The position numbers and the translations under genes were made by a program. Under the pieces are notes generated by a model. It was not told where the DNA came from, did no database searches, and saw only the letters and a list, made by a program, of their open reading frames with translations. Shown here piece after piece: positions 1 to 44,740 of a stretch of DNA of 64,000 nt; within the stretch, counting starts at the first letter, position 1, and every line of letters starts with the position of its first letter. Source of the stretch: a virus; IMG/VR virus record IMGVR_UViG_3300045961_000282, positions 126,001-190,000 of that record, one strand, 5' to 3'.

Positions 1-700
1 CCTTGAACTCGTTGGCGTAGTCATGGCGGCAGAACATCAGTTGGTGTGTGCCGTTCATCCCCGGCTGCGCTGCGTCGTGGGCCTCCAGTTCCGACATCCG
101 CCCGTCGTCATAGGAGTGGCTCCAGTGAATCGTGTTGATTGCCAGCACGCCGCGGTAGCCGATACTGCGCCAGTGGCTGACGGCGGCCTTCATCGACGGC
201 GTCCACTGAGCCCACGTCACGTTGTTGGGCTCATTGAAGGGCTCGTAGATGACCGCCGGGTTGTCCTTGAACAAGGCGTTCACCTTGGCCATCATGTCGA
301 AAGCCTCGGTTGCTCGGCCGGGCCATGCCGACCCTTGGCTCAGGGAATCCCACCAGCAGATCTGCGTGTACATGCCCGCCTTGGTGGCCAGATCGACCCA
401 CTCCTTGGTGCGGTCGAGGTACTGCTGCTTGGTCAGCCCCCACTTCTGCCCGTTGTAATCGGTCGCATCGAGGCGAAGTCGCACGAGGTTGGCACCCCAC
501 GACCTGATGGTGTCGATGACCGTCGTGCGGCCCTTCCACTGATGCTCGGCGTGCTGCGCATGCCACTGGTCGTACCCGGGCACCCCCCACACGCAGACGC
601 CCGCGACCTGCAGGCGGGGACCCTTGGCCGATCCACGGCGCAATGAAGCGGGCGAGGATGAGGTGGCGGGGACGATGACGGGGCGTTCGAGGGCTGCCAT
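1..700 (-). CDS. GH5-type endoglucanase (cellulase), C-terminus cut by window edge
   Basis: The minus-strand frame opens with ATG at 700 and stays open to the window edge, so the C-terminal end is missing. Around residue 165 it reads YEPFNEPN, the GH5 signature with the acid/base glutamate in NEP. Upstream are beta-alpha barrel strands (GANLVRLRLD, YTQICWWDS). The expected reaction is hydrolysis of beta-1,4-glucan. No signal peptide is visible, unlike the GH6 neighbour, so the enzyme is either cytoplasmic, released at lysis, or virion-borne. A TACCGT -10 box six bases before the ATG suggests a leaderless transcript. It lies 28 bases downstream of the GH6 gene in the same direction. Confidence 0.85.
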   Translation of the reverse strand, partial: MAALERPVIVPATSSSPASLRRGSAKGPRLQVAGVCVWGVPGYDQWHAQHAEHQWKGRTTVIDTIRSWGANLVRLRLDATDYNGQKWGLTKQQYLDRTKEWVDLATKAGMYTQICWWDSLSQGSAWPGRATEAFDMMAKVNALFKDNPAVIYEPFNEPNNVTWAQWTPSMKAAVSHWRSIGYRGVLAINTIHWSHSYDDGRMSELEAHDAAQPGMNGTHQLMFCRHDYANEFK

Positions 701-728
701 GCGTCCACGGTAGCCCACGGGTCAACCG

Positions 729-1727
729 TCAGGAAGCAAGAGACGCCGCAGCCTGCGGCCACCACACTCCTGCGGGCGGCTCGCCCCGGCCGCACTCGCC
801 ATCAGAGTTTCCGGGCTGCTTGATCCACAGGTAGGCGTCGGCGCCGGGCTCATCGGTGCCAGTGGTGGGGCTCTTCCCCAGCCGCGCCGTCATGCTGTTG
901 CACCAGTCGCCCGGTTCGACGGGGGCGCCGTTGCGGCTGACGTCGATCACGTAGCGCGTGACGCCAACCCGACGGCCCATCTCGCGTGCATATTCGGCGC
1001 TGCGGGCCGTGGAAACGTGGTTGGACACGTTCACTGCGATGCCGGTGGCCCGACGAACTCCGGAACGCCCCAGCGCCCGCGCGAGTTCTGTGCGATCCAG
1101 TTTCCATGTCGCGTTTCCTGCGTCGAGGTAGACACGGGTTTCCCCCTCGGTCAACAACGTCACCGCCTCGGACAGCAGGGCGTACCGATTCTTCGTCCCA
1201 CCTTGGACCTGACATCCGTCGACGGCCTGCGCGACCGCATCTGGCTCAATGATCACGATGGCCCGACGACCCCCGATGCCAGCCGCGATCTGCTGAACCC
1301 AGCGCAGGTACTGCGCGTCCGTCCGAGCCCCGCCCTTGGAGTACAGGCCGCAGTCGCGATCAGGGATCCCGTAGACGACGATCATCGGGACCTGCCGGGC
1401 GACGGCAGCCTCATCGACCAAGCGATCCACGGCTGCGGTGGGATCTCGGAAGGGATCGGTGAACCATACGGCCGTCGGTTGGGCGGCTATCCGGGCAGTT
1501 GCTTGCACCAGTTCCGACGGCGCATCGTCGGGCAGGTTGTTCAGTGCCCAGACCGCCGAGCCCTGCGGACTTCGGTACAGCGTTGCCCCAGCCAGCGGAT
1601 TGCTGACCGACTCGGGAGCGTTGGCCACCTCCGCCGATGGGCGGCACGCCGTCATCGCGAGGGTGGCAACAACAACGAAGGGCACCCAGAAGGGTGCCCT
1701 TCGTTGGTTTCGATCAACTCTCGACAC
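729..1727 (-). CDS. GH6 endoglucanase/cellobiohydrolase lipoprotein, CslZ-like
   Basis: I chose the GTG at 1727, which overlaps the end of the upstream oxidase gene by 14 bases and gives 332 residues. The N-terminus has arginines, a hydrophobic run and the lipobox LAMTAC, so the protein is probably a surface lipoprotein. GH6 landmarks follow in order: YGIPDRDCG, IIEPDAVAQ, YLDAGNATW, NVSNH, YVIDVSRNG, GDWCN and DAYLWIKQPG. Family knowledge: GH6 enzymes cut beta-1,4-glucans with inversion. In Streptomyces the cslA-glxA locus is followed by a GH6 gene (cslZ) that processes the tip glycan, and this gene has the same position. Codons near the start form a GGGCACCC palindrome at about 1681-1700. 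Confidence 0.92.
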   Translation of the reverse strand: MSRVDRNQRRAPFWVPFVVVATLAMTACRPSAEVANAPESVSNPLAGATLYRSPQGSAVWALNNLPDDAPSELVQATARIAAQPTAVWFTDPFRDPTAAVDRLVDEAAVARQVPMIVVYGIPDRDCGLYSKGGARTDAQYLRWVQQIAAGIGGRRAIVIIEPDAVAQAVDGCQVQGGTKNRYALLSEAVTLLTEGETRVYLDAGNATWKLDRTELARALGRSGVRRATGIAVNVSNHVSTARSAEYAREMGRRVGVTRYVIDVSRNGAPVEPGDWCNSMTARLGKSPTTGTDEPGADAYLWIKQPGNSDGECGRGEPPAGVWWPQAAASLAS

Positions 1728-3624
1728 GGACCCACTTCGCAATCGAGGGCACTCCGTTGCTGTCGATGGCGAACAGCATGTAGTAGCCGGAGGGCACCAT
1801 CCCGAGGGAGTCGGGCACGATGCCGGTGGCGATTCCATCCTTGACGGCAAGGTCCTCCAGCGCGATCGAGCGCTGCTCGGGGTCGGTCAGGTGAGTCACC
1901 GCGCTGGGGCGGATCAACCGCATCCGATCGATGTCGCCCGTGACCTCGACGCTGATCCGCTCCCCGCGCTCCACGCTGGCCGGGGCCGCAAGGATCTCGG
2001 GCCGCGGCGTCCCCGTGAACAGGTACGGCGGGCGGTAGACCTCGATGCGGGTCTCGAACGTGCCCGGCGTGTGATTGTGCTCGTCGCCGAACAGCGGGTC
2101 AGACCCAATCGTCATCACCGAGCCGTCAGGCAGCAGCGCCGCCGTCGAGTGGTAGTTGCGCCCGATGTGGTTCGGCGCCGCCTCGATCAGCGTGTTGGTC
2201 GCCGGGTCCAGCATCATGGTCAGGCGCAGGTCGGACAGGCTCCTGCCCCGGTAGTCCCGCGAGCCGCCCGTGAGCAGAGTCTTGTCGTCAGGCAGGGTCA
2301 CGGCGCTGATGTACCGGCCCGGCTCAGGGTAGTCCGGTCCCGGCTCGTAGCGCGGCGTGTCGCTGGCATCGAGGTCGACGATGTCGATCCGGTTGGTCGA
2401 CTTGTCGCTCTCGCCCACGCCGCCGCCGCCGATAATCGCCACGCGCTGATCCTGTGCTGGGGCGAGCATGACCGACGACGACGTCTCGTTCATCTCTGGA
2501 TCGCGCAGTCCATCGACGTCCTGCCATGAGTTGTCCGACACGTCCCACAGGCCGGGCTGGCGGCCCTCATCGGCAGCGCCGTAGCCCGTGCTCGACCCGG
2601 AGTAGAACAGCCGCCCATCGGCCATGCGGAACAGTGACGGGTAGGTCGGGAAGAACCGATCCACCTTCCCGTCGTAGTGCCACGTCCCGTCACCGACGTT
2701 GAAGACCTCGTTCTGCCCCTCAAGGATGTAGCCGTGCTCGTCGAGGCCGGACACCGCGATGATGTTGTCGCCGTTGAGCGACACGAGCGTCGGATACCAG
2801 CGGGCGAAGTTCATGTCCTCGGTCTTGATGTACTTGCGCTGCTCGACGGAGTAGATGTAGGACGAATCCAGCCCGGCGTAGTTCTGCTTGTCCATCGTGA
2901 TGACGTTCGACCAGCCGTACAGGTTCTGCTGCTCGGCGTTCGAGAGGCGGGTCAGGTCGATGCGCTCAGCGTGCTCGGTCATGGCGTATTCCTTGCCCTC
3001 TTCGACCGCCTCGACCCACACGTTGGCCTGCCCCGAGGTCCACTTCCCATCCACGTCGCGGGCAGCGGGGATCACCCGATCCTCGGTGGTCACGTACTCC
3101 ATGCCGTTGGCGCGGCGCCAGACGTCGCCCTTCTTGACCTCGAACGGCTCTCCGGACTCGTTCTTGATCCACAGCGCCCCCGCAGCCTTCTTGACGTTGT
3201 CGGGCAGCACCTCGTACTTGGAGGTTCCTCCGGCCACCAGTAGGTCGCCGTTGGGCAGGTAGGCGTGGCCACCGCAGAACAGGTCCTCGGGGGTGTCGAC
3301 CTTGGTCGTGTCTCCGGTGACCGGGTTCCACAGAACGGTCTCGAACGTGCCTGCCTCGAACGCCTTGCGGCTGTTCCCCGAGCCAGCCAGCAGCAGCACT
3401 TCGCCGGAATACAGCAGGGCCGTGTGGATCGCCCGCACGCGGTACTCGTCAGGCAGTTCGATGGTCTGCCACTGGCCGTGCTCGCGGATGTAGTCCGGGC
3501 GTCCCTCGCGGTAATCCTGATAGGCGCGGGCCCCTGCGGGCCCGATGACGACGGCGTTGATCGACAGAATTCCGACCACGGCGACCGCGGTCACTATCCG
3601 ATTTCTGGTCCGGGCTGAGATCAT
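1714..3624 (-). CDS. glxA: GlxA-type mononuclear copper radical oxidase
   Basis: This 636-residue protein has one N-terminal membrane helix (about residues 10-30), kelch-like beta-propeller repeats and a C-terminal Ig-like domain (DUF1929 type), the galactose/glyoxal oxidase layout and close to the usual GlxA length. The copper site looks complete: Cys117 in LFCGGH and Tyr277 in RWYPT for the thioether cofactor, Tyr491-His492 in RNYHST, and His578 in AVTHLTD. Expected activity is oxidation of a primary alcohol or aldehyde on an extracellular glycan with release of hydrogen peroxide. The start overlaps the cslA stop by ATGA, so translation is coupled. In Streptomyces GlxA works with CslA at hyphal tips; the same role here is inferred. 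Confidence 0.93.
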   Translation of the reverse strand: MISARTRNRIVTAVAVVGILSINAVVIGPAGARAYQDYREGRPDYIREHGQWQTIELPDEYRVRAIHTALLYSGEVLLLAGSGNSRKAFEAGTFETVLWNPVTGDTTKVDTPEDLFCGGHAYLPNGDLLVAGGTSKYEVLPDNVKKAAGALWIKNESGEPFEVKKGDVWRRANGMEYVTTEDRVIPAARDVDGKWTSGQANVWVEAVEEGKEYAMTEHAERIDLTRLSNAEQQNLYGWSNVITMDKQNYAGLDSSYIYSVEQRKYIKTEDMNFARWYPTLVSLNGDNIIAVSGLDEHGYILEGQNEVFNVGDGTWHYDGKVDRFFPTYPSLFRMADGRLFYSGSSTGYGAADEGRQPGLWDVSDNSWQDVDGLRDPEMNETSSSVMLAPAQDQRVAIIGGGGVGESDKSTNRIDIVDLDASDTPRYEPGPDYPEPGRYISAVTLPDDKTLLTGGSRDYRGRSLSDLRLTMMLDPATNTLIEAAPNHIGRNYHSTAALLPDGSVMTIGSDPLFGDEHNHTPGTFETRIEVYRPPYLFTGTPRPEILAAPASVERGERISVEVTGDIDRMRLIRPSAVTHLTDPEQRSIALEDLAVKDGIATGIVPDSLGMVPSGYYMLFAIDSNGVPSIAKWVRVES

Positions 3625-5324
3625 GGAGCGGCCCTTTCAAGGCTTTGGGTGCTGATGATGTCGTCGTTGGACTTGCTGAGGTTCATGACCACCGGAGCAA
3701 GGCAGACGACGATCGCCAGCATCGCCCACATGCGCATCATGAAGTGGTCGTGGCCCAACGGAACGGATGCCACAAACGCGGAGGTCAGCAGTGCCCCCCA
3801 TGCCAGATGACGCGTCCGCCAGAACGTGGACATCCTCTCACGGCCCTGCGGTGCCGGTCCCTTCGGAGTGACATTGAACGCGCCGGGCTTGCGGCTGACT
3901 GCGTGCCACAGAGCCGTGACGTACAGCGGGGCCGACAGAATGGACACGGCCATCCCCGACATGCCGGACGAACCATGCTCCTCGTGCGGGGACACGTTGT
4001 GGCGGCGGTTCCAGAAGTAGATGCCCAACTGCAGTGCAGCGGCGTTGAGGTACAGCATCAGCCACAGACCCGCGGTGACCACGACGCTGCCGATGCCGGT
4101 GAGCAGGTACATCACGAGGTTGAAGGTGCCGATGATCCACGTCAGGGCGGCAGTCGGGTAGTAGGACATCAACATCATGTAGTGCACCCGGCGCCGCCAC
4201 GGCAGGGTAGGCATCAGGGTGCGGAACTGCCGGACCACCACGTCGTCGGTGCCGCGCGACCAGCGCACCTGCTGAGTGAAGTAATCGCCCCAAAGCGATG
4301 GACCTTCGCCGACTGCAAGCACGTCGGGGGTGTAGACCGACTTCCACTTGTTCCCTGTCGCCGGGTTGACCGACGCGTGCCAGACGATGCTGGTCGCGGC
4401 GTCCTCGGTGATGGAGTCCTGCAGCCCGCCGATCTCCATGAGTGCCGAGATCCGCACGGCGTTGTTGGTTCCGACGAACATTGCGCAGTCCCACGTGTTG
4501 GCCGCGCGCTGCAGCACGGAGTGGAACAGGTACTGCTGGCTCTCCGCGGCGCGGGTCACGAAGTTGTCGTAGTTGCCGTAGACCTGCGGGCCGACCACGA
4601 ACGCGACGTCGGGGTCACGGAAGTAGCCCAGCAACCGCTCGGCGAAGTTGGGCAGCGGCACGTGGTCAGTGTCGACCGAGATCCAGTAGTCGTAGTTGTA
4701 CCCGTGGGTGAACAGCCACGAGTTGTAGTTGCCGTGCTTGGTCTTGGCCTTGTACCGACCCTCAGCGGTGTTCCACTCCTCGATGCCCTTGCGCGAGAAG
4801 TGCCGCACGCCGATCTCGGCGCACATCGCCTTGACCTCGTCGTCGTCGCCCTCGTCGAGCACCCAGACGTCCAGAACACCGGAGTGCCTGATCTGCAGGG
4901 CGGCCTCGAGGGTCCGCCGCAGCATGTGCAGCGGTTCCTTGCCGGGCACGATTGTGGTGATAAAAGCCACTCGGCTGTCGGTTTCCGGCAGGACCGGAAT
5001 CGGGTCACGGGCGTGCACGGTGGCCATCGCCAACGTGCCGACGTTGATCAAGCGGAACGTCTCGATGGCTCCGATGAACACGATCATCGTGACGCTGACG
5101 GCGAGTTGCCAGCCACTCTGCCCCTGCGGGTAGTGACTGGGCCACATGAGCCAGATCAGGAACACCGACTGGAACAGCAGCGCTGCGCTGACCAGAAGGA
5201 TGGACCACAGGCGAGCCCTGCCGTGATTGAGTCGACGGTACTCAACAGTGTGCTCAGGACCTGCCTCAACGGGCTCACCGGCCAACTCGCTGTACCGGTC
5301 GTAGTCGTAGTGATACGTCTGCAC
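3621..5324 (-). CDS. cslA: CslA-like processive family 2 glycosyltransferase (cellulose-synthase-like)
   Basis: The GTG start at 5324 follows GGAAGAGG at a good distance; an ATG at 5342 is possible but has no ribosome site. The 567-residue protein has two N-terminal membrane helices (about 40-62 and 74-95), a GT2 catalytic domain and several C-terminal helices. Catalytic signatures are DEGDDD (157-162), DTD (218-220), TED (306-308) and QQVRW (351-355), the D,D,D,QxxRW set of cellulose and chitin synthases. It should polymerise a beta-linked glycan from a UDP-sugar and extrude it through the membrane. It heads an operon followed by glxA, GH6 and GH5 genes, the order seen in the Streptomyces csl locus. 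Confidence 0.93.
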   Translation of the reverse strand: MQTYHYDYDRYSELAGEPVEAGPEHTVEYRRLNHGRARLWSILLVSAALLFQSVFLIWLMWPSHYPQGQSGWQLAVSVTMIVFIGAIETFRLINVGTLAMATVHARDPIPVLPETDSRVAFITTIVPGKEPLHMLRRTLEAALQIRHSGVLDVWVLDEGDDDEVKAMCAEIGVRHFSRKGIEEWNTAEGRYKAKTKHGNYNSWLFTHGYNYDYWISVDTDHVPLPNFAERLLGYFRDPDVAFVVGPQVYGNYDNFVTRAAESQQYLFHSVLQRAANTWDCAMFVGTNNAVRISALMEIGGLQDSITEDAATSIVWHASVNPATGNKWKSVYTPDVLAVGEGPSLWGDYFTQQVRWSRGTDDVVVRQFRTLMPTLPWRRRVHYMMLMSYYPTAALTWIIGTFNLVMYLLTGIGSVVVTAGLWLMLYLNAAALQLGIYFWNRRHNVSPHEEHGSSGMSGMAVSILSAPLYVTALWHAVSRKPGAFNVTPKGPAPQGRERMSTFWRTRHLAWGALLTSAFVASVPLGHDHFMMRMWAMLAIVVCLAPVVMNLSKSNDDIISTQSLERAAP

Positions 5325-5395
5325 GGTCCCCTCTTCCTGCATGACGTGAGTATGGACGGTTGCGCCAGCAGGCCTTCCCTGTCTGACGAGTTGCC

Positions 5396-5440
5396 AAACC
5401 CTACCACGATTTGGATCCCTGCTAGTCCGTGCTAGGGTTT
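5396..5440. promoter_or_regulatory. bidirectional promoter between the two glycan operons
   Basis: AAACCCTA (5396-5403) and TAGGGTTT (5433-5440) form an inverted repeat 37 bases from centre to centre. Each arm supplies an outward TAGGGT -10 box, one for cslA-glxA and one for the plus-strand genes. The rightward box lies 7 bases before the GTG at 5446, which suggests a leaderless transcript. One regulator bound here could control both operons. Confidence 0.6.
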
Positions 5441-5669: not shown

Positions 5670-6020
5670 ATGGCACGTGAAGTTCAGATCATGACGTGGT
5701 GCGACCACTGTCTCAATGAGGAGAACCTGCAGGTCGAGGGCATGACGTACGTCGGGCTGAACAGCGCCGGGGCGCGCGTCGAGATCGACCTGTGCGCCGA
5801 GTGCGCCGAGTCCTTCCTCACCCCCGCCCTGTCGGCGCTGGACGCCTACGGGCGCGATGAGCCCAAGCCAAAGCGGCGCAAGCGCGTCGAGAGCCCGGCG
5901 CCCGCGGGCGGCCAGTGTCCCGACTGCGACAAGACCTTCCCGACCAAGCAGGCGCTGGGCATGCACCGCTGGCGTGCGCACAACGTCCCGGGCGAGGGTA
6001 AGGGCAAGAAGTCGGCCTGA
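5670..6020 (+). CDS. zinc-binding protein with N-terminal Cys cluster and C-terminal C2H2 finger
   Basis: The 116-residue product begins at an ATG with AGGAG upstream. Residues 11-45 carry two CxxC pairs (CDHC, CAEC), then a basic linker (KPKRRKR), then a classic C2H2 unit (CPDCDKTF...LGMHRWRAH). Such single-finger proteins are common in actinophages and are presumed nucleic-acid or protein binders. Its place between the membrane protein and the deacetylase gene suggests co-expression only. Confidence 0.8.
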   Translation: MAREVQIMTWCDHCLNEENLQVEGMTYVGLNSAGARVEIDLCAECAESFLTPALSALDAYGRDEPKPKRRKRVESPAPAGGQCPDCDKTFPTKQALGMHRWRAHNVPGEGKGKKSA

Positions 6021-6052: not shown

Positions 6053-6670
6053 ATGCGTTTGATCGTTGCACCGCACGCCGATGACGAAGTGCTGGGATGT
6101 GGCGGCCTGCTGGCCAAGTACCCAGACGAGTGCTGGGTCGCCGTACTCTCGGACAAGAACGATGGTCGGATGACGGAGTTCTACCGGGCCAAGGGTGTTC
6201 TCAGGTACAAGCACAGCACCAAGGCTGACTTCGTCACCGGGGAACTGGCGGCACGGTCCCGTGAGGTCACGACGTGGCTGGATCAGTTGATCAAGCAGAT
6301 CAAGCCGAATGAGTTGTACCTGCCGACGCCGGGTGCACATCAGGACCACATCGCGGCCTACGAGTCGGGCGTCCGGGCGGCACGCCTGTCCTACACCAAT
6401 GGGGCGTGGTTCGTCCCCGCGGTGTTCCTGTACGAGATCCCGTCATACAGCACGGACCTGTACACGATCCCGTACCCGTGGAACCGCTTCGAGGTGCTCA
6501 CCGAGGAGCACATGGATGCCAAGGCGAAGGCCATCGAGGCCTACGCCTCACAGATGAACGGCGCGTTCAATCCTGCGCACTTCGCCCGCGAGCACGCTCG
6601 ATTCATCGGGGCGCAGCGCAATGTCGCTTATGCCGAACAGTTTGCGGTGGTCAGGGAGGTCCGCGCATGA
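6053..6670 (+). CDS. PIG-L/LmbE-family deacetylase
   Basis: This 205-residue protein has the zinc-binding signature APHADDEVLGCGG (His8, Asp10, Asp11) and a later GAHQDHIAAYESG, both diagnostic of the PIG-L superfamily. Members remove N-acetyl groups from GlcNAc-containing conjugates (MshB, PIG-L, and deacetylases in polysaccharide loci). The A/C-rich leader ends in AAGGGGGGAT before the ATG. Its stop overlaps the next gene by ATGA. Substrate is unknown; a HexNAc sugar of the nearby dehydrogenase/transferase pathway would fit. Confidence 0.88.
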   Translation: MRLIVAPHADDEVLGCGGLLAKYPDECWVAVLSDKNDGRMTEFYRAKGVLRYKHSTKADFVTGELAARSREVTTWLDQLIKQIKPNELYLPTPGAHQDHIAAYESGVRAARLSYTNGAWFVPAVFLYEIPSYSTDLYTIPYPWNRFEVLTEEHMDAKAKAIEAYASQMNGAFNPAHFAREHARFIGAQRNVAYAEQFAVVREVRA

Positions 6671-7323
6671 TTCTTGCGGCACATCAGTTGAACTTCATGC
6701 CGTATTCCGGTTTCTGGTACAAGATGGAGAAGGCCGATCTGTTCGACCTTCGCTATCAGGCCCAGTACACCGAGAAGGGGTACATCCGCCGGGTCAAGAT
6801 GCGCGACGCGTGGTGCGCAGTTCCTGTTGTCGACAAGCCGAAGTACGAGCCGACCAATGAGGTCCGCATCGACATCGCCAAGGCGCGAACGCAGATCTGC
6901 AACACCATCAAGGGTCGGTACGCAGGCGCCCCGTACTACAAGCAGCGTGGCGGCGACCTGATCGATCGGATCCAGAGTCTGGACACCGGCTACCTGTGGG
7001 AGTTCAACCTCGAACTCATCCTGTACCTGCGCGATGTTCTCGGGATCCAAACCCCCCTGACACTTGGAGTGGATACCATCGGCGGCAAGGCCGAGGGGGT
7101 CCTGAGTTTCATGCGGGTTTACCCCGGGGTAGAGACTTACCTGTCAGGGATCGGCGCCAAGGCGTATATGGAGGACACGTCGATCTTCGACGAGGCGGGG
7201 ATCAAGATCGAGTGGTCGAGGCACCGCGCGGTCACGCACGATTCGGTCGTCACCCTTCTGATGGACTACGCCGACCCCATGGAAATCATCATGCTTGAGA
7301 ATGAAGGGGACCAGAATGTCTGA
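6667..7323 (+). CDS. WbqC-like family protein
   Basis: The 218-residue product starts MILAAHQLNFMPYSGFWYKM, the typical WbqC-family opening with a HQ..F.PY.GF..K signature. Family members occur in O-antigen and capsule loci beside sugar-modifying enzymes, but their reaction is not settled. Translation is coupled to the deacetylase gene (ATGA). The context supports a part in making a modified sugar or a lipid-linked glycan. Confidence 0.8.
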   Translation: MILAAHQLNFMPYSGFWYKMEKADLFDLRYQAQYTEKGYIRRVKMRDAWCAVPVVDKPKYEPTNEVRIDIAKARTQICNTIKGRYAGAPYYKQRGGDLIDRIQSLDTGYLWEFNLELILYLRDVLGIQTPLTLGVDTIGGKAEGVLSFMRVYPGVETYLSGIGAKAYMEDTSIFDEAGIKIEWSRHRAVTHDSVVTLLMDYADPMEIIMLENEGDQNV

Positions 7324-7402
7324 TTCGTGCGCCCGTGGGTGCCGCGTGTTCTCGCGCAAGGAAAAGACGCAGGTGTGCATTGTCTGTGGAAAAGCAGAGT
7401 GA
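7316..7402 (+). CDS. 28-residue Cys-rich (zinc ribbon-like) peptide
   Basis: ATG at 7316 overlaps the WbqC gene end by 8 bases. The peptide has two Cys pairs (CARGC and CIVC), a zinc-ribbon pattern. Its stop overlaps the next GTG start by 4 bases, which argues that the chain of tiny frames is real. No function can be assigned. Confidence 0.5.
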   Translation: MSDSCARGCRVFSRKEKTQVCIVCGKAE

Positions 7403-7536
7403 GTGATCGCCTGCACGTTTATGGTCACACTGAGGATTGCGCGTGTCTTGCGTGCTCCTTCCTGAATGCCATAGCCGCCGCGCCCGGGGAGCGGACGTCG
7501 GACAAGATCAAATACGTTTTAGGAGACAGTGAATGA
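7399..7536 (+). CDS. small Cys-containing protein (45 residues)
   Basis: It starts with GTG overlapping the previous stop and ends with ATGA overlap into the dehydrogenase gene. It contains HTEDCACLAC, a His/Cys cluster that could bind metal. The tail of its frame carries the TTAGGAGA ribosome site of the next gene. I recognise no family. Confidence 0.5.
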   Translation: MSDRLHVYGHTEDCACLACSFLNAIAAAPGERTSDKIKYVLGDSE

Positions 7537-8777
7537 GCAAGGTGCTGATAGTTGGGATGGGCTACGTCGGCCTGCCTATCGCCGTACGTGCCGCCGAGGT
7601 TGGCCACGAGGTCATCGGCGTGGACGTGAGTCAGGACAAGATCGACTCGATCGCCACTGGGATGTCCTACATCGAGGACGTCAGCGACGAGCGGCTGCAG
7701 GCCGTGGTTGCATCAGGGGCCCTGCGGGCCACCGACCTCAGTGAGCGACACTCCTTCGAGATCGCGCTGATCACCGTGCCGACGCCGGTCGACGCGATGA
7801 AGCGGCCCGACCTGCAGTTCATCGAGGCGGGGGCGAACTACGTCGCCTCCTGCATGAACGGCGGCGAGGTTGTAGTGCTGGAGTCCACCACGTACCCCGG
7901 CACCACCGAGGATGTCGTCGCCGAGCGCATTCGCCGGATCGCTGGGCTGGAGCCGGAGCGCGACTACATGCTCGGGTACTCGCCTGAGCGCATCAATCCC
8001 GGCGACTCGGTGAACACCTTCGACACGGTTCCCAAGATCGTGTCCGGCACCGATGCGGCCTCGCTGGCGAGGATCCAGTCGTTCTACGACACGCTGGTCC
8101 AGCGGACCGTCCCCGTGTCCTCGCCGCGCGCGGCCGAACTGGCCAAGGTGTTCGAGAACACGTTCGCTCAGGTCAACATCGCGCTGGTCAACGAACTGGC
8201 ATTGGTCTGCTCCGAGTTGGGCCTCGACGTCGATGAGGTTCTCGACGCCGCCGCCACCAAGGGGCACTCGATCATGCGGTTCCGTCCCGGCCCCGGTGTC
8301 GGTGGGCACTGCATCAGCGTCGACCCGCTGTACCTGACGTGGATGCGGCGCAACATGGCGGGCAAGGCGTTCCGGTTCGCCGAACTGGCCGATGAGATCA
8401 ACGGCGGCATGCCCGAGCACGTGGTTCACCGGGCCCGCTCGGTGCTCAACGACCACGGGGTTCCGATCTGGAACTCGCGCATCGGCGTGCTGGGGGTTGC
8501 CTACAAGCCCAACGTCGCCGACATCCGGGAGTCTCCGGCTCTGGTTCTGGTTGAGCGACTGCGCGAGACCGGCGCGGAAGTCTCCGTGTTCGATCCGCAC
8601 GTCAACACCGCTGAGGATGCTGAACTGGCGGCAAAGTCCGCGGGGTCGTTCGACCTGATGATCGTGGCCACCGATCACGACGACTTCGACTACGAGGCCA
8701 TCCACAAGGGTGCCCGTGTCATCCTCGACACACGCAACCGCTACCCTCGGGGCACGGCGCGGGTCCACAAGTTGTGA
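7533..8777 (+). CDS. nucleotide-sugar 6-dehydrogenase, UDP-HexNAc (WbpA/WecC) class
   Basis: This 414-residue protein has an N-terminal Rossmann motif (GMGYVGLP, residues 8-15), ESTTYPGTTE, SPERINPGD, and the active-site segment GPGVGGHCISVDP with catalytic Cys260. The GPGxGGHC form is typical of UDP-GlcNAc and UDP-ManNAc dehydrogenases (WbpA, WecC), whereas UDP-glucose dehydrogenases usually have GFGGSCFPKD. It should oxidise C6 of a UDP-sugar to a carboxylate using two NAD. It probably feeds an acidic sugar to the transferase encoded 150 bases downstream. Exact substrate is inferred. Confidence 0.93.
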   Translation: MSKVLIVGMGYVGLPIAVRAAEVGHEVIGVDVSQDKIDSIATGMSYIEDVSDERLQAVVASGALRATDLSERHSFEIALITVPTPVDAMKRPDLQFIEAGANYVASCMNGGEVVVLESTTYPGTTEDVVAERIRRIAGLEPERDYMLGYSPERINPGDSVNTFDTVPKIVSGTDAASLARIQSFYDTLVQRTVPVSSPRAAELAKVFENTFAQVNIALVNELALVCSELGLDVDEVLDAAATKGHSIMRFRPGPGVGGHCISVDPLYLTWMRRNMAGKAFRFAELADEINGGMPEHVVHRARSVLNDHGVPIWNSRIGVLGVAYKPNVADIRESPALVLVERLRETGAEVSVFDPHVNTAEDAELAAKSAGSFDLMIVATDHDDFDYEAIHKGARVILDTRNRYPRGTARVHKL

Positions 8778-8802
8778 CCGCTTCCAAGGGGGGGTGTCTG
8801 CT

Positions 8803-8931
8803 GTGACCCAAGAATTCCTCATGTCCTACGGACAGATCACCATCATCGGCCTCGGGTCGTTGATAGGGCTGAGCGCGGTCCTGATCCATCGCGTGCGCAC
8901 TCGCCATCACAAGTACGGGAAGGGATCATGA
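8803..8931 (+). CDS. single-helix small membrane protein
   Basis: GTG at 8803 follows a strong AAGGGGGGG ribosome site by 8 bases, giving 42 residues; an ATG at 8821 is the alternative. One hydrophobic helix precedes a basic tail (RVRTRHHKYGKG). It overlaps the glycosyltransferase start by ATGA, so it may be a partner subunit of that enzyme. Confidence 0.6.
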   Translation: MTQEFLMSYGQITIIGLGSLIGLSAVLIHRVRTRHHKYGKGS

Positions 8932-10265
8932 CTCCGATAGGTCGCAACACCCCGGCTCGCGGTCTGGGCATGGTGGCCAGCCTGATCTTCATCGGGCTGT
9001 TCATCGGCTACTTCTCATGGTCGGCCATGGGCTGGATCAACCAGAGCGGCGCATGGTTGCTGGTCGGTTTCTTTGCCTTCTTCGCCACCATCACGCTGGG
9101 GAACATGATCTCCGGGCTGTTCTGGAAGTCGTTCACCGACCTCCCGGTCCCCGACGCCCGCGTGGTGGCCATCGTGCCGATCTATGCGGAAAAGACCGAG
9201 CGGGTCCACAAGGTGGTGCTCTCGCTGATCCATCAGACTCGCCCGCCGGACCACATCTACGTGGTCGACGACGGCTCCGAGCCACCGCTGGTGGGCTTCG
9301 AGCACCCGCTGGTGACGTGGATCCGACAGGAGAACGCAGGCAAGCGCCACGCGCAGGCACGCGCACTGGCCGAGTTCGACCGCGATGAGTACGACCTGAT
9401 CCTCACTGTCGACTCGGATTCGGTGTTCGACGCCGATGCGGTTGAGCACCTGATGCGCCCGTTCAACCACTCGGACATCCATGCCTCGACGGCGATGATC
9501 TACACGTCGAACTGGCGGGCCAACCTGATGACCCGGTTCACCGACATCAACCTGCAGATCTCGTGCTTGCAGATGCGGATGCTCCGCTCGTGGATGGGTA
9601 TTGTTACGCCGACCTCGGGGGCCATCGCCATCTACCGGCCGTGGGTGTTCTTCGACAACCTCGACGACTACCTGACCTCAGGCAACATCGGCGACGACCG
9701 ACGGCTGTCGTTCTACGCGCTCATGAAGGGCCGTGTCGTCACGGTCAACGAGGCGGCCTGCGAGACGCACCTGCCCGAGACGCCGCGCGGCATTTTCAAG
9801 CAGCGCACCCGTTGGGCCAAGTCGGCATGGCTGGGAACTCCCTTCGTGTGGACCAACCTCAAGCCGCTGGTGGTGTTCTTCTACACCTACCCGCTGCTGT
9901 TCGCCCTGCTGTGGCCGCTGTCGGTGGCGTTCCTGTCGTGGATCTGGATCGCCTACGGCATCCCGTCGCTGATGTACGGCGTCGCCTTCTGGTTCGTCAC
10001 GTCGTTCACGATGACCGGGGCTGCCTATGCCCAGCGGCCCTCGATGCCGTTCGGGCAGAAGGTGCTGCAGGTCGGGCTGTCCCTGCTCTACCCGATCTGG
10101 GGTCTGATCCTGCTGCGTCCCGCGGCGTACAAGGCGCTGGCCACCGTCCGCGATCAGAGTTGGGGGACCCGTGGAGCCGATGCTCCTGAGCCTGAGATGG
10201 ACGGCGTGGCCCCGGCCCCATCTGGTGGGCGCGTGATCGGCCTGCCCAAGAGGACTGCCGCCTGA
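8928..10265 (+). CDS. hyaluronan-synthase-like processive family 2 glycosyltransferase
   Basis: The 445-residue protein has N-terminal membrane helices (about 15-35 and 40-62), a GT2 domain and C-terminal helices (about 305-400). Key residues: DDG 114-116, DSD 162-164, SGAIAIYR, GDD 255-257 and QRTRW 292-296. The GDDR plus QxxRW spacing and the SGxxxxYR element resemble class I hyaluronan synthases and NodC more than CslA. It should polymerise and secrete a glycan from UDP-sugars. With the HexNAc dehydrogenase next to it, an acidic amino-sugar polymer is a reasonable inference. Confidence 0.92.
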   Translation: MTPIGRNTPARGLGMVASLIFIGLFIGYFSWSAMGWINQSGAWLLVGFFAFFATITLGNMISGLFWKSFTDLPVPDARVVAIVPIYAEKTERVHKVVLSLIHQTRPPDHIYVVDDGSEPPLVGFEHPLVTWIRQENAGKRHAQARALAEFDRDEYDLILTVDSDSVFDADAVEHLMRPFNHSDIHASTAMIYTSNWRANLMTRFTDINLQISCLQMRMLRSWMGIVTPTSGAIAIYRPWVFFDNLDDYLTSGNIGDDRRLSFYALMKGRVVTVNEAACETHLPETPRGIFKQRTRWAKSAWLGTPFVWTNLKPLVVFFYTYPLLFALLWPLSVAFLSWIWIAYGIPSLMYGVAFWFVTSFTMTGAAYAQRPSMPFGQKVLQVGLSLLYPIWGLILLRPAAYKALATVRDQSWGTRGADAPEPEMDGVAPAPSGGRVIGLPKRTAA

Positions 10266-10323
10266 GCGCTCACGGGGCTACTGTGGACGTACCAGAACGG
10301 TCACCTCACCAAGGAGTACACCC

Positions 10324-11526
10324 ATGCCCTCATTTCGCGAGGTCATCACGTCCATCTCGGGCTTGACCCACTACTACGCGCTGGACGACAAGACCAAGGC
10401 CACTGACTTGGTCGGCAAGATCAACGGCAAGGTCAACGGCAACGTCATGTTCGGCGCCAACGGGGCGACGTTCGACGGCAAGTCCAGCATCGAACTGGCC
10501 AACAGCGCCGACTTCTCCCCGGCTGGCACGGCGTCCAAGGCCCTGACCATCATCGCCTTCCACACCGTCACCGACTGGAAGCGCCAGTCGCACAACAACG
10601 AGTACGTCCACTGGATGGGCAAGGGCCGCACAGGCGCCCACGAGTGGGTGTTCCGGTACTACATCGACGGTGGCAGCGGTGAGGCGGCGACCCGCAAGCG
10701 GCGCACCTCGTTCTACTCGTTCAACCCGGCGGGCGGTCTGGGCACCGGCTCGTACTTCCAAGACGACGACGCCGCGGGCGTCGAGCGGGTGATCGGCGGC
10801 ATGGTCTGGGGCAACTCAGCCAGTGGCTCGACGCAGATGTGGAAGAACGGCGTGATCCGCGACACCGACGCGCTGAGCACCTACTCGGTCAACCCCAAGC
10901 ACACCGACGCCCCCGTGTTCCTCGGGTCGCGTGGGGACAACACGGGCTTCCTCGTTGGTCGGCTGCGCCGGGTGGCCTTCTTCAACCGCCGCCTCACCGA
11001 GGCTGAGATGAAGAAGATCTACGACGCCCGCAACTTCGTCGAGGTCGAGGAGGCCGTGACGCCTCCGCCGGTCGTGACTCCTCCGGCGGTGCTCGGCGAT
11101 GTCTACGTCGGCGCCAGCAAGCGGGCGTACAACGGGAAGAACGCAGCGCGCGCCGCGGACACGCTGGTCGTCTTCGACGATGCGTATGGTTCGAAGACCG
11201 ACACCAACGAGTGGGGGGCCGAAGTCCTGATCGAGAAGGGCAAGGTCACCGCCGTCCTCGACCAGCGCACGGGCGCAGAGGGAGCCAAGAACCTCGCCAT
11301 CCCCAAGGGCGGGGTCGTGCTGTCCGGCCACGGAGAGGCTCGCACGTGGCTGCTGGAACACGCGAAGGTCGGTGTGGTGGCTTCGGTGGGGTCCCCGCCC
11401 GTGGCGCCCGCTCCTGACCTCTCCGCGCAGGCCAAGGCAATCCGGGCGCAGGCCGCCGCGCTGCGCAAAACCGCGGATGAACTGGATGCCACTGCGGCGT
11501 CCATCGAGAAGGAGACGAGTGGCTAG
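10324..11526 (+). CDS. LamG/concanavalin-like domain protein with coiled-coil tail
   Basis: This 400-residue protein has a LamG-like jelly-roll fold in residues 1-240 (YYALDD, ATFDGKSSIELAN, FNRRLTEAEMKKIYDARN). A proline-rich linker (TPPPVVTPP) and a second domain (about 255-360) follow, then an alanine-rich helix ending in repeated KTADELDATAASIEKE. No signal peptide is present. LamG domains bind carbohydrate and are common in phage tail and capsid decoration proteins, so this may be a virion protein. AAGGAG lies ahead of the ATG. Confidence 0.75.
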   Translation: MPSFREVITSISGLTHYYALDDKTKATDLVGKINGKVNGNVMFGANGATFDGKSSIELANSADFSPAGTASKALTIIAFHTVTDWKRQSHNNEYVHWMGKGRTGAHEWVFRYYIDGGSGEAATRKRRTSFYSFNPAGGLGTGSYFQDDDAAGVERVIGGMVWGNSASGSTQMWKNGVIRDTDALSTYSVNPKHTDAPVFLGSRGDNTGFLVGRLRRVAFFNRRLTEAEMKKIYDARNFVEVEEAVTPPPVVTPPAVLGDVYVGASKRAYNGKNAARAADTLVVFDDAYGSKTDTNEWGAEVLIEKGKVTAVLDQRTGAEGAKNLAIPKGGVVLSGHGEARTWLLEHAKVGVVASVGSPPVAPAPDLSAQAKAIRAQAAALRKTADELDATAASIEKETSG

Positions 11527-12382
11527 GAGCACCATCCTGCGGGTGGGGGCGGCGACAGGCGCCGCCCTCGCCCTGCTGCTCACCCTGACCGCAGGCGTCT
11601 GGTCGCATCAGGACCGCACCGACGCCTTCAGCATCACGAACCTGTACCGCTCAGACCCCACAGGGCAGCGCTGGGCCGCCGACTGGACCCGGGAGTGGTC
11701 CAATGACCCATGGGTCGAGCGCGGCAGCAACAACGTGCGCTACCGCACCGAGAACGGTGTGCTGACCGTCACTGGGCCGACCAGTCGGCTCTACGTGCGC
11801 AATCCCGACATGAAGACCCAGTGGGGCAACGTCGAGGTGACCGTATACGGATACCGGGTCGCCGACGAGAACATCGGGTACTCCGGAATCGTCACATCGG
11901 CACGCACCAACCACGGCGTCTCGGATCCACTGGAATCCGCCCCGTGCGACTCTCGGGCCATCGCGGCACGGATGCGCTTCGATGGTTCCATTGACTTCGG
12001 AAAGGAAACCTCACATCCGACATGGGAGGCCGTTCCAGCCGGGATATTGTTCCCCGGCGGTCTGCCGTACAACAAGTGGATCGGCTACAAGCACGTCGTC
12101 TATGACATCCCCGGCGGGACCCGGCAGGAACTGTGGGTCGACCTCACCGAGGGCCGCAATGGCGGGACGTGGCGAAAGGTGGCGACCCACGACGACACCG
12201 GTCAGGTCGGCGAAGTCGCCTGTGCGCCCGACGTCGATCCCGCCCTGCCGCTGACCCTTGGCAAGCGCGACGGCTCCGAGAGTGGGCTGCCCAACCTCTC
12301 CGTGCTGTTGCGTGCCGATGGCGTGGATGACCTGCGCTACAAGTGGTTCTCCGTGCGCGACATCATTCCGCCGCGCGGCTGA
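11519..12382 (+). CDS. secreted or membrane-anchored beta-sandwich protein
   Basis: GTG at 11519 overlaps the previous stop by 8 bases and has GGAG upstream. The 287-residue protein starts with a signal/anchor (about residues 5-30). The remainder is rich in beta strands (NGVLTVTG, RLYVRNP, VEVTVYGYR) with two cysteine-bearing regions. The pattern recalls lectin- or lyase-type concanavalin folds in polysaccharide loci, but I cannot name the family. It ends the rightward glycan operon before a terminator. Confidence 0.65.
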   Translation: MARSTILRVGAATGAALALLLTLTAGVWSHQDRTDAFSITNLYRSDPTGQRWAADWTREWSNDPWVERGSNNVRYRTENGVLTVTGPTSRLYVRNPDMKTQWGNVEVTVYGYRVADENIGYSGIVTSARTNHGVSDPLESAPCDSRAIAARMRFDGSIDFGKETSHPTWEAVPAGILFPGGLPYNKWIGYKHVVYDIPGGTRQELWVDLTEGRNGGTWRKVATHDDTGQVGEVACAPDVDPALPLTLGKRDGSESGLPNLSVLLRADGVDDLRYKWFSVRDIIPPRG

Positions 12383-12392
12383 GATATGGGGC

Positions 12393-12425
12393 GGCCCCCC
12401 CTCGCATATCCGACGAGGAGGGGCC
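12393..12425 (+). terminator. terminator of the rightward glycan operon
   Basis: A 12-bp stem with one mismatch (GGCCCCCCCTCG / CGAGGAGGGGCC) follows the last gene by 10 bases and is trailed by CTTTGG. Confidence 0.65.
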
Positions 12426-12501
12426 TTTGGTTATCCCATTAGCAGTGGGTTCCTGCTTCATCGTCCCGACGGCACTTGAAGTGACGGATCATTTTCAAGG
12501 T

Positions 12502-12599
12502 CGCGGCGCCCTGCCATTAGGCCACCGAGACATGGGGTGTTGCTGCGGTCGCACAGGGCAACCAGAGTCTCGGACAGGAATTGAACCTGCATCTCCGCG
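12502..12599 (-). tRNA. candidate circularly permuted tRNA, possibly Glu(CUC)
   Basis: Read on the minus strand, a tRNA 3' half comes first (12599-12566: anticodon-stem strand CGCGG, AGAT, T-arm GCAGG-TTCAATT-CCTGT, acceptor CCGAGAC, base T). A 34-base spacer follows, then the 5' half (12531-12502: acceptor GTCTCGG, TG, D-arm GCCT-AATGGCA-GGGC, G, CCGCG). The acceptor pairs 7/7 and the anticodon stem 5/5. The flanks pair again: AGTGACGGA (12615-12607) with TCCGTCACT (12488-12480). The anticodon is uncertain because the loop would be completed by processing; CTCTCC next to the 3' half allows CUC. No CCA is encoded. Confidence 0.55.
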
Positions 12600-12675
12600 A
12601 GGAGAGTCCGTCACTATTCGATTCGGGTCGTACAGGTGGTGCTAAGACTGGAGCGAGAGCCTGAATCTGATGGGG

Positions 12676-23587: not shown

Positions 23588-25432
23588 TTACCGCCTGCCC
23601 TTGTACGGAGAACGTTTTCCGAGGTTCGCTGCCCCTAGTGGCGGCAACCGATAGGCAGACATTGAGCGGGCACGCAGATTAGAATTGACGGCAAATGAAG
23701 CGCCCTTGACCTTGGTGGTGAGGGCCAGCGACGCCCAGACCATCGCGTCGAGACGTCCCGGAGATACCTTGGATTCCGCGGGGACCCATGAGGTGATCTC
23801 GGATTCCAACAGCGGGTGGTAGTTCAGCATATGCAGGCGGCCCTGCTCAGCAAGGGCCGCCACCGGCTCGGCGCGGGTTGCCTTGCCTGCTCGGGCGTGC
23901 ACGATGTAGACCGGCACGTTGGCATTCACCTGTCCGATGGCCATGCGGACCAGTTCGCCGCCCTGATTCCCCTCGGCCACCACTGGGCCGCCCCACTTGA
24001 TCGCCATGTCCACGACCCGCTTGGCCCAGACCGCCGGGCTGCCCAGCACGGTCGCATCCTCCACGACGTAGAGTTGGCGGCGGTAGAAGTCCCGCTCGGC
24101 GGTTCCCTTCACCACCACGATGCCCGCCTCGTCCTTGGGGCGCTCAGCAACACTGGGATCGACCCCGATCACCGTGTGCATCTTGATCCCGCCCGGCAGT
24201 TCGGTCACCCGTGCCGCATCGAGGTCGGACTGCATGAACAGCGCGCCCTCGATGTCGTGCAGCATCTCGCCCATCAGTTCCTGCTGGCCGATCCGGGTCC
24301 CTTCGTACAGGCCGAGGATCGTGGCGCGGAAGGACTGCGCAAGGTTGGCGAGGTTGTCATATGTCGTTCCACGGGTGATGACGATGCCGAACTCAGGATT
24401 CTCGGATTCCTCCAGCAGTTGGAACATCGAGGGAACGCGTCGCGGCGTGGTCGTGGCAACCATACGCGGCATGTCGCCATCAACCGGAAGTCGTAGACCC
24501 AGCCGCAAGTTGGCGAACGCCGTCAGACCATCGGCGCCGGAGACCTGCGGGTAGGAAGCAAACTCGTCGCAGTTGTGAATCAAGACTCCGGCGGCATAGA
24601 ACTCCGGCGCTCCGTTGATCGTGAGGTCATAGACATTGGCTCGACCCGCCGGGCGCACGGAAGCAACAGGAAACAGGGTGGTGCTCGAGTCTGTGCTGAG
24701 GCGGACGTGAACCATATCCCCGGCCTCGAGGTCGGCGGCCTGAACCCACGTGTCCCGCCTCGATTCGCTCGCCACCAACACGAGGTGATCGGGGGTGCAG
24801 CGCAATGTCGTCGGCCCGGCCTCGATCTCCACCACCTCGCGGTCGGTTCCCGTGCGCTGTGCGCGCGCGACCGGCCAGAAGCCGGAACGGGTGAGCACTT
24901 TCATCCCCGGCTGGATCTGTTCGATGGGCAGCGGCCCCAGCGAGGTGAGTACCGGCTCCCCTTCGGCTACGCACCACGCGGTGTCGAACTGGGGACCACG
25001 CAACTGGTCCGGCTCGTCGGCGGAGAAGGCCAATGCATACGCGCCGTTCGGCCACGACACCCGGCGCTTGGATGGCTCCCAGACGGGTACCTCGCCGGGT
25101 CGGGAGGACTCGATGATCCCCGACGGGCCGTTGACCATGACATCGCGGACGTCAGCAGCGGTGCGGCCCAGCAGCGCGATTCGCCTGCCGTGGCCATCGC
25201 GGACCCGTTCATTGATCCACTCAGCGGCGGTTCTCGTTTTCCCCCAACCCCGCCCTGCCATCGCCAGCCAAAGCACCCAGTCTCCGGACGGAGGGGTCTG
25301 GGAGGGCCTCCTCCAGAAGGCCCAATCGTGTATCAGCGACTCGGCATCAACCCCTTCAAGGGTCGCCTCGCGCTCCTCAGGGGGAAGCAGGGCGATGCGT
25401 TGGGCCATCGAGAGTTCGTGGCCGTAGGTCAT
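23588..25432 (-). CDS. terL: terminase large subunit with mini-intein
   Basis: ATG at 25432 lies 7 bases after a TATGGT box, so the mRNA is probably leaderless. The 614-residue precursor has Walker A GRGWGKT (61-67) and a Walker B region DTAW//CDEF split by an intein at residues 154-287. The C-terminal nuclease domain shows VDPSVAERPKDEAG, VVAEGNQGG and GRLDAMVWAS, matching the RNase H-like acidic triad. After splicing the protein would be 480 residues. It packages DNA into the procapsid. No small subunit or portal gene is evident next to it. Confidence 0.93.
   Translation of the reverse strand: MTYGHELSMAQRIALLPPEEREATLEGVDAESLIHDWAFWRRPSQTPPSGDWVLWLAMAGRGWGKTRTAAEWINERVRDGHGRRIALLGRTAADVRDVMVNGPSGIIESSRPGEVPVWEPSKRRVSWPNGAYALAFSADEPDQLRGPQFDTAWCVAEGEPVLTSLGPLPIEQIQPGMKVLTRSGFWPVARAQRTGTDREVVEIEAGPTTLRCTPDHLVLVASESRRDTWVQAADLEAGDMVHVRLSTDSSTTLFPVASVRPAGRANVYDLTINGAPEFYAAGVLIHNCDEFASYPQVSGADGLTAFANLRLGLRLPVDGDMPRMVATTTPRRVPSMFQLLEESENPEFGIVITRGTTYDNLANLAQSFRATILGLYEGTRIGQQELMGEMLHDIEGALFMQSDLDAARVTELPGGIKMHTVIGVDPSVAERPKDEAGIVVVKGTAERDFYRRQLYVVEDATVLGSPAVWAKRVVDMAIKWGGPVVAEGNQGGELVRMAIGQVNANVPVYIVHARAGKATRAEPVAALAEQGRLHMLNYHPLLESEITSWVPAESKVSPGRLDAMVWASLALTTKVKGASFAVNSNLRARSMSAYRLPPLGAANLGKRSPYKGRR
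24572..24973 (-). mobile_element. mini-intein inside terminase Walker B motif
   Basis: Intein residues 1-134 start with Cys (CVAEGEPVLTSLGPL), contain block B (TPDHLVLV) and end in VYDLTINGAPEFYAAGVLIHN followed by the +1 Cys of CDEF. All splice residues (Cys1, block B His, penultimate His, terminal Asn, +1 Cys) are present. There is no LAGLIDADG or HNH insertion, so it cannot home alone. Confidence 0.92.
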
Positions 25433-25504
25433 GGGGCGAACCATATCCCGCCGTCTCGGGTGTCAACCGCGGTTCATGCTCGATTCACGCGCGATGAATC
25501 CCGC

Positions 25505-26464
25505 TCACCAGTCCCGCACCGGCACCATCGCTCGCCCGATCAAGTAGGTCCCCGCCTCGGTGTGGATGTCGACGTACTCCTTGGGTTCGATGTCGGCGCT
25601 GGCATGGACGTAGTAGGCCGGGCGCACCTCGTTCGGGCGCTTGTTCGGCGCCGCCGCGCGGGCCACGGCGAGGTCGATGTCCCGCAGGTACATCCGCACC
25701 GGGTCGATCAGCACGCGGGTCAACGACTGGGTTGAGTTGTGCACCGCCGAGGACCGCCAGCCCAGTGAGGTCGCCACCTCGGCCAGTGCGTTGACGATCT
25801 CAGGGCGCCGGGAGCGGATCACGACGTGGCGGCGCAGGCCGCGGTTGAACACACCCTTGCCATCGAGCGCCCCGGCCATCAAGTCACGGCGCACCTCCAC
25901 AGGCGCCCGCCGGTACGCGAGCGCGACCGGCTCGGAGAAGGCGTCGATGCGATGCAGCCGCTCCAGCAGCCCATCGACGTAGAGGTAGGCGTGCTTGCCG
26001 TGGGCAGTGCGGCGGCGAACCTTCAGGCCGCGGGCCTCGATCATCTCGGCGGCCCGGTCGGCGAGATTGGCCGGAACCGACACCGCATCCTCGATGCCGG
26101 TGGTCCGCCACAAACCATACGTCCACGGATCGAGCGGCGGCCCGGCCTCGAGCCAGTCCTCGGGGATCTCCCCGATGAGCGCGATCCGCTCGGTCACCAC
26201 CGGGTCGCGGCGCTCGGCCTCGCCGGGCCACGCCTTCATCGACACCCACGCAGTTCCCAGCACGAGGTCGTGGTCGGTCGAGCAGCGGATCGGCGGGCCG
26301 GAGATCCGCAGTTCGGTGGCTCGGGGCGGGGTCTCGCGGGCTACGCGCGCGACCGGGGTCGGCTTGCCGGAGGAGTCATAGAGCAGGTCGCCGGGAGCCG
26401 CGCGCCACGCCTCGATCCATCCGGTCGGGGAGACCAGCGGGGTCTCGGGATGGATGCTCGGCAT
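25505..26464 (-). CDS. free-standing Hint (intein-like) LAGLIDADG endonuclease
   Basis: The 319-residue protein opens with an intein block A-like region (TPLVSPTGWIEAWRAAPGD) but with no catalytic Cys1. It has block B-like CSTDHDLVLG (61-70), two LAGLIDADG-type helices (YGLWRTTGIED at 116-126 and LMAGALDGKGVF at 195-206) and a C-terminal block F-like end (YVDIHTEAGTYLIGRAMVPV) without His-Asn. Splicing residues are lost, so it acts as an endonuclease. TATGGT six bases before the ATG suggests a leaderless mRNA. It lies immediately upstream of the intein-bearing terminase gene, so it may mobilise that mini-intein in trans. Confidence 0.82.
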   Translation of the reverse strand: MPSIHPETPLVSPTGWIEAWRAAPGDLLYDSSGKPTPVARVARETPPRATELRISGPPIRCSTDHDLVLGTAWVSMKAWPGEAERRDPVVTERIALIGEIPEDWLEAGPPLDPWTYGLWRTTGIEDAVSVPANLADRAAEMIEARGLKVRRRTAHGKHAYLYVDGLLERLHRIDAFSEPVALAYRRAPVEVRRDLMAGALDGKGVFNRGLRRHVVIRSRRPEIVNALAEVATSLGWRSSAVHNSTQSLTRVLIDPVRMYLRDIDLAVARAAAPNKRPNEVRPAYYVHASADIEPKEYVDIHTEAGTYLIGRAMVPVRDW

Positions 26465-30978: not shown

Positions 30979-30984
30979 TTGGTC

Positions 30985-31737: not shown

Positions 31738-31840
31738 GTGGAAATCTTATCAACCGACCCACCTCGCGTAGGGGCGCGCGACCGGAAAGCGATCGCTCGA
31801 GGTCCTCCGTCTTCACTGAACATCGGGATATGGTTCGCCC

Positions 31841-43859: not shown

Positions 43860-43926
43860 GGGAAACATCCTTTCTGTCGATGGCAGGACCCCTTTGGTCC
43901 CGTCCGTGTGTGAAGGGTACGCGAAA

Positions 43927-43954: not shown

Positions 43955-43966
43955 GTGACGAGGCCG

Positions 43967-44690: not shown

Positions 44691-44702
44691 GCACACACGA
44701 GA

Positions 44703-44732: not shown

Positions 44733-44740
44733 CCCCCCGA

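Follow-up and report, generated by a model that had tools for sequence, protein, structure and literature searches.

We analysed a window of 64,000 bases (bases 126001–190000 of the IMG/VR viral record IMGVR_UViG_3300045961_000282, 206,257 bases in total) and found at its start a csl gene cluster carried by a phage genome. The cluster consists of cslA, glxA, a GH6 glucanase gene of the CslZ type and a GH5 cellulase gene, lies on the minus strand from position 5342 to position 1, and runs on outside the window. To our knowledge, only filamentous soil bacteria had so far been known to combine a CslA-type synthase with a copper-radical partner and a trimming enzyme. Judged from their sequences, the genes very probably encode a working glucan synthase, and we lean towards the view that the main role of the cluster would be to coat infected cells with a cellulose-like glucan. 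All four proteins had been proposed in an initial annotation made from the DNA letters alone, and they are borne out by Pfam, NCBIfam and PDB matches with E-values that rule out chance.

CslA and its copper-radical partner

CslA (3621–5342, minus strand, 573 aa) is a cellulose-synthase-like GT2 membrane transferase, for which the ATG at 5342 was taken as the start codon rather than a TTG upstream. It matched Pfam GT2 families with E-values down to 1e-12, the NCBIfam model CelA at 3e-30 and BcsA in the PDB at 2e-18. Residue conservation was checked across 104–116 chromosomal relatives per protein, and alignment of CslA with 107 of them showed that the motifs LDEGDD, DTD, TED and QxxRW (here QQVRW) are intact. 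Phage CslA is 50–55% identical to chromosomal CslA, and about 51–56% to CslA of Streptomyces.

GlxA (1714–3624, minus strand, 636 aa) is a membrane-anchored radical copper oxidase, with Pfam matches to the GlxA barrel and the galactose-oxidase E-set. It aligned with S. lividans GlxA (PDB 4unm) at 3e-154, with 43% identity over the full mature length, is 42–49% identical to the GlxA proteins of Streptomyces, and matched the NCBI equivalog model NF052501 over its full length (E 1.3e-231, 770.4 bits). The Cys-Tyr pair, the stacking Trp and the copper ligands are all present (C107, W266, Y267, Y481, H482 and H568, in the numbering of the 626-aa form); five of these residues are invariant in 116 of 116 chromosomal relatives, and W266 is found in 115 of the 116. 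Thus the copper ligands reported initially were kept in a checked alignment. The N-terminus is basic and has one hydrophobic anchor at residues 10–28 by hydropathy, which fits an N-terminal membrane helix. The ATG of glxA overlaps the stop codon of cslA as ATGA (3621–3624), so that the two genes are translationally coupled. Several Streptomyces genomes (G001, G002, G003 and others) were seen to have a pair of full-length GlxA genes, and one member of the pair is nearer in identity to phage GlxA.

The GH6 and GH5 genes and the hairpin upstream of them

The third gene encodes a GH6 glucanase of the CslZ type (729–1727, minus strand; Pfam, 2e-56). The GTG at 1727 is its best start (alternative extent 729–1685) and yields a protein of 332 aa with a twin-arginine, hydrophobic and lipobox-like N-terminus, QRRAPFWVPFVVVATLAMTAC, which agrees by inspection only with the lipoprotein nature first assigned to it. 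The catalytic Asp of RDCG and the motifs EPDA and DAYLW are kept in comparison with chromosomal relatives. A perfect 15-bp hairpin (1673–1706, minus strand; −34.9 kcal/mol with flanks, z −5.7) starts 8 nt past the glxA stop codon, separates glxA from the GH6 gene and overlaps the first, signal-peptide codons of the latter. Because hairpins of the same style follow many other stop codons of the record, it may serve the phage as a terminator or attenuator; these others, which look like terminators belonging to the phage, are perfect hairpins of 11–19 bp that lack a U-run and mostly lie close behind the stop codon, at a distance of a few bases (record positions 26424, 46901, 146065, 175042, 196312 and others). 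Scans of promoter and terminator consensus sequences gave no more matches than in shuffles. Since the strong hairpin overlaps the first GH6 codons, expression of the GH6 and GH5 genes may be weaker than that of cslA-glxA, or separate from it. The initial annotation had described the four genes as one coupled operon, which is borne out only for the first pair, with its ATGA junction; the glxA-GH6 junction has the hairpin, and GH6 and GH5 are spaced by 28 nt.

Only the 5′ part of the GH5 cellulase gene lies in the window (1–700, minus strand), as the gene runs past the window start to a full length of 374 aa (record 125576–126700; Pfam, 5e-22). It scored 79 bits against the PF00150 cut-off of 23.5, has by inspection the catalytic Glu motifs FNEPN and ESEFGNY, and has no signal peptide. 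Its C-terminal helical tail carries the motif LRxxADxLDAxAA, which is common to a LamG protein of the same phage located 10 kb away (10324–11526) and was found nowhere else when 2.7 Mb of sequence from phages and Streptomyces was searched.

Location within a phage genome

The whole record was read and holds 301 predicted genes at a coding density of 87%. The csl cluster is internal to it, with the portal gene (record 120470–122215) on one side and the gene for the terminase large subunit, a phage hallmark that here contains an intein (window 23588–25444, minus strand), on the other. Adjoining the cluster on the same strand are the portal (phrog_776, 2e-99), tape measure, tail-fibre and portal/protease-type genes. 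In codon usage, the four csl genes stand at 1.61 from the rest of the phage, which is nearer than for 94% of four-gene sets drawn at random, and far apart, at 4.29, from chromosomal csl genes. As far as its sequence can tell, the segment is thus no piece of host DNA, and the description of a phage-borne cslA-glxA-cslZ set plus GH5 was upheld: the place between portal and terminase, together with a codon usage equal to that of the phage, favours it over the host chromosome or assembly chimera that had been raised against it.

The closest known relatives of the portal protein, at 45–52% identity, are from the Actinomycetia phage DSL-LC01 of Dishui Lake and from Microbacterium and Arthrobacter phages of ∼190 kb. 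In DSL-LC01 and A3Wally the portal gene is near the terminase gene, whereas here ∼27 kb lie between them, a stretch that takes in the csl cluster and the cassette beside it. The flanks of 80 IMG/VR loci with portal relatives (at most 54% identical) had neither csl nor cassette genes, and therefore no close relative was found for a dN/dS or empty-site comparison. The record ends have no terminal repeats, neither a tyrosine integrase nor a serine recombinase was found in the record, and no partition gene was seen among the record genes scanned. On balance, the carrier appears to be a large actinophage of lytic type that captured the cluster and then kept it for long. A Streptomyces prophage was considered and dropped, as no tyrosine integrase or serine recombinase was found and the codon usage is unlike that of Streptomyces csl genes. 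An SPFH/Band-7 membrane protein is encoded at record 30982–31857; an SPFH gene is also present upstream of the csl cluster in Streptomyces (PMC9040799).

Relation to chromosomal csl loci

The cluster was compared with 80 Streptomyces loci and further actinobacterial genomes. It resembles the CslA-GlxA-CslZ system of Streptomyces (in which glxA is SCO2837) in that the three families come in the same order with coupling of cslA and glxA (PMC11022532, PMC9040799), GlxA is membrane-anchored with a Cys-Tyr copper site, and the GH6 partner is of lipoprotein type. The phage copy differs from it in the glxA-GH6 hairpin, the extra GH5 gene, the co-directional GH6 gene, the lack of LpmP and the phage location; the Streptomyces arrangement, with cslZ on the opposite strand and lpmP nearby, is not that of the phage. 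The GH6 gene is convergent with glxA, on the opposite strand, in 78 of the 78 Streptomyces loci that have all three genes, whereas in other actinobacteria it runs in the direction of glxA, as it does in the phage (9/9; L133-L135, L137, L138, L141, L142, L145, L146). In these latter clusters cslA, glxA and GH6 likewise all lie on one strand, but they are chromosomal and have no adjoining GH5, and the phage genes branch apart from them.

Trees were built for GlxA, CslA and GH6; in all three the phage protein stood alone on a deep branch that fell outside the Streptomyces clades, and a GlxA tree with an outgroup placed phage GlxA inside the csl family. The exact placement of the phage branches is unsure because they are long, and the host cannot be named from these trees because the phage genes are lone deep branches. 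From the co-directional order and the branching outside Streptomyces we therefore infer that an early transfer probably brought the cluster out of an actinobacterium other than Streptomyces, or out of a lineage not yet sampled. GH5 was beside none of the 100 chromosomal csl clusters searched, and its sole relative among 395 genomes is 37% identical. Hence the claim of the initial annotation that the gene order copies the Streptomyces locus is not supported in that form, either for the orientation of GH6 and the tree positions or for GH5 as a part of such a locus.

Occurrence in other phages

No GlxA homologue was found by tblastn in 50,697 phage records, in agreement with the earlier statement that no phage with this set had been described. 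This is a stronger test than exact-pattern scans of IMG/VR with GlxA and with a single CslA sequence, which found no relative but reach near relatives only and so do not prove absence. For GH5 there was no relative in the phage records, and GH6 matched a protein in the tail-gene region of Streptomyces phage Gilgamesh and one faecal phage contig. CslA had weak partial matches only, including an annotated putative cellulose synthase of the cyanophage S-CBWM1. This Synechococcus phage is alike in encoding a cellulose-synthase-like GT2, but the protein is 31% identical over 44% of CslA, its gene adjoins an efflux-type gene, and GlxA and GH6 are not annotated beside it. A closer case is a 95.7-kb phage record (L252, IMGVR_UViG_3300047576_000046) with a CslA-like synthase that is 39% identical over nearly the full length. 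Its gene, in the region 7211–12671, sits between two GH16 glucanase genes followed by a second GT2 gene, with portal and tape measure genes in the same record; GlxA was not found in this record, which belongs to another phage lineage. We found nothing in the literature on a phage CslA or GlxA, and an estuarine survey has a viral GT2 ‘cellulose synthase’ among its entries (PMC12285232).

The neighbouring glycan cassette and other genes

A second set of glycan genes runs divergently from cslA on the plus strand. A gene for a small zinc-finger-like protein comes first (5670–6020; Pfam zf-C2H2, below cut-off), and the cassette then starts with a PIG-L family deacetylase (6053–6670; Pfam, 3e-11), followed by a WbqC-like protein (6667–7323; Pfam, 2e-28), a nucleotide-sugar dehydrogenase of the UDP-glucose/UDP-HexNAc dehydrogenase family (7533–8777), a second processive GT2 that is NodC-like (8970–10265; NCBIfam NodC, 8e-28) and the LamG-like protein (10324–11526) with the GH5-like C-terminal tail. 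These five, from PIG-L to LamG, occur in the same order and at 59–73% identity in another phage record of 105 kb (L257/G758; G758:20113-26155), with 66% for the deacetylase, 59% for WbqC, 68% for the dehydrogenase and 73% for the NodC-like GT2. Because of this shared content and order, the cassette is, on sequence comparison, a conserved phage module. The 105-kb record has tail-gene similarity to the present phage and contains no csl genes. An AlphaFold model of the NodC-like GT2, made with no alignment, was poor (pLDDT 53) and was not used; the folds of the csl proteins are settled by their homology in sequence. A polysaccharide deacetylase of the NodB-type family is encoded at record 24997–26415, and the C-terminal part of this protein matches sequence that lies beyond the GT2 gene, on its downstream side, in G758.

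Elsewhere, the window contains a weak homing-endonuclease match adjoining the terminase gene (25505–26464) and an MmeI-like restriction-modification methyltransferase (49704–52226). At record 43548–45608 a protein of 686 aa is encoded that has a match to an intein splicing domain. Between the portal and capsid genes there is a predicted protein of 3,976 aa (record 108008–119938), and giant proteins are found in the same place in A3Wally and DSL-LC01.

Proposed function and alternatives

In S. lividans, the orthologous CslA and GlxA are sufficient for cellulose synthesis in vitro (PMC11022532). In S. coelicolor, CslZ and the lytic polysaccharide monooxygenase (LPMO) LpmP are required for the glycan to cross the peptidoglycan to the surface, CslZ alone hydrolyses peptidoglycan in vitro, and hyphae that have lost glycan deposition become lysozyme-sensitive (PMC9040799). 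CslZ is Tat-exported in S. lividans (PMC4736821) and a lipoprotein in S. coelicolor (PMC9040799). The synthase, its copper-radical partner and the trimming genes of the phage are apparently intact, and the virus could therefore build a cellulose-like coat; that the genes are expressed during infection, that polymer is made and that the virus gains from it is what we infer. During infection, CslA would polymerise UDP-glucose into a β-1,4-glucan across the membrane, and the membrane-anchored GlxA would form a complex with CslA, in which the copper radical would oxidise or mature the chain; copper loading of GlxA would rely on the host proteins Sco and DtpA (PMC4736821). The GH6 lipoprotein would open the wall and trim the chain, allowing the glucan to reach the surface, and the resulting cellulose-like coat would shield the infected cell from other phages and lytic enzymes, or would glue cells together. 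Lacking a secretion signal, GH5 would come into contact with the glucan only after its release at lysis, which is the simplest reading, or if virions carry it, and it could then cut the progeny free.

The earlier proposal that the phage may coat or reshape the host surface is thus plausible, and the coat is suggested by the adjacent phage-conserved cassette with its NodC-like GT2 and by the CslA-like gene between GH16 glucanases in another phage (L252). Together, the csl cluster and the cassette suggest that this phage invests in surface glycan synthesis. The nearest counterpart in function is the coat made by chloroviruses such as PBCV-1, which cover infected cells with hyaluronan by means of a viral synthase and a UDP-glucose dehydrogenase and thereby inhibit the attachment of other viruses (PMC5408694). 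A virus-encoded processive GT2 synthase is common to both cases (PBCV-1 has the genes has, ugdh and gfat, and CVK2 a chitin synthase; PMC5408694), as is a UDP-sugar dehydrogenase, which here lies in the neighbouring cassette, so that CslA, the NodC-like GT2 and the nucleotide-sugar dehydrogenase supply the pairing of processive synthase and precursor enzyme; the coat of infected cells is in the present case predicted. Chloroviruses differ in being algal viruses that make other polymers, their described hyaluronan set has no copper oxidase partner, and the module is not homologous. Several points weigh against a coat made by the csl genes. GlxA is 30 bits short of the NF052501 cut-off (770.4 versus 800) and is a divergent homologue by that test, the strong hairpin may limit the expression of GH6 and GH5, no LPMO of the LpmP type is encoded in the record, the full csl set is present in one record only, and the benefit of the chlorovirus coat is itself unproven (PMC5408694).

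Alternatively, the cluster could steer host development, with extra csl dosage prompting a filamentous host, in a long-lived carrier or pseudolysogenic state, to aggregate, to adhere or to grow at its tips, and so raising phage yield or spread. The csl genes do govern pellet formation and morphogenesis in Streptomyces (PMC9040799; PMC4736821), and a carrier state requires no integrase. Yet we consider this unlikely, given that no tyrosine integrase or serine recombinase was found, that the genes scanned included no partition gene, and that the host is not known to be filamentous; the portal relatives belong to phages of Microbacterium and Arthrobacter and to one from a lake. It is more doubtful still that the cluster serves entry or exit, with GH6 and GH5 digesting host glucan and CslA and GlxA only altering or replacing the tip glucan of the host for attachment or leaving. 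A GH6 protein is indeed found among the tail genes of Gilgamesh, and GH5 has no signal peptide and has its C-terminal tail in common with a second protein of the phage, as might be expected of enzymes associated with virions or with lysis; but degradation needs no complete synthase with a membrane partner, and the phage GH6 has a lipoprotein-type N-terminus rather than a tail-protein context. Two further readings are highly improbable and were dropped: a piece of host chromosome or an assembly chimera joined to a phage contig would suit a single record whose ends have no terminal repeats, but not a cluster internal between portal and terminase, with phage-like codon usage far from chromosomal csl, a neighbouring cassette conserved in another phage and a GH5 tail motif that recurs in this phage only; and decaying passenger genes with no role would suit the long tree branches, but not four open frames in which every checked catalytic residue was kept after ∼50% divergence.

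Implications

Within the coat reading, we regard as possible, and only tentatively, a two-polymer matrix on infected actinomycete cells, in which cellulose made by CslA-GlxA would be combined with a NodC-like glycan fed by the dehydrogenase, and which would later be cut by GH6 and GH5. If this is true, the matrix would be a bacterial-virus counterpart of the hyaluronan coat of chloroviruses, and the synthase complex encoded by the virus would include a copper-radical oxidase. The phage enzymes known to us mostly strip glycans from the host surface, whereas the phage described here seems equipped to make such a glycan, using a complete synthase of several proteins. Should the genes be functional, they would offer a natural, half-diverged CslA-GlxA pair for dissecting the need for a copper radical oxidase in cellulose synthesis, which is an open question in Streptomyces. 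What a virus gains by coating its host, a question raised by the chloroviruses, would become testable in bacteria with standard genetics. Moreover, phages may be carriers of cellulose-synthesis genes between actinobacteria.

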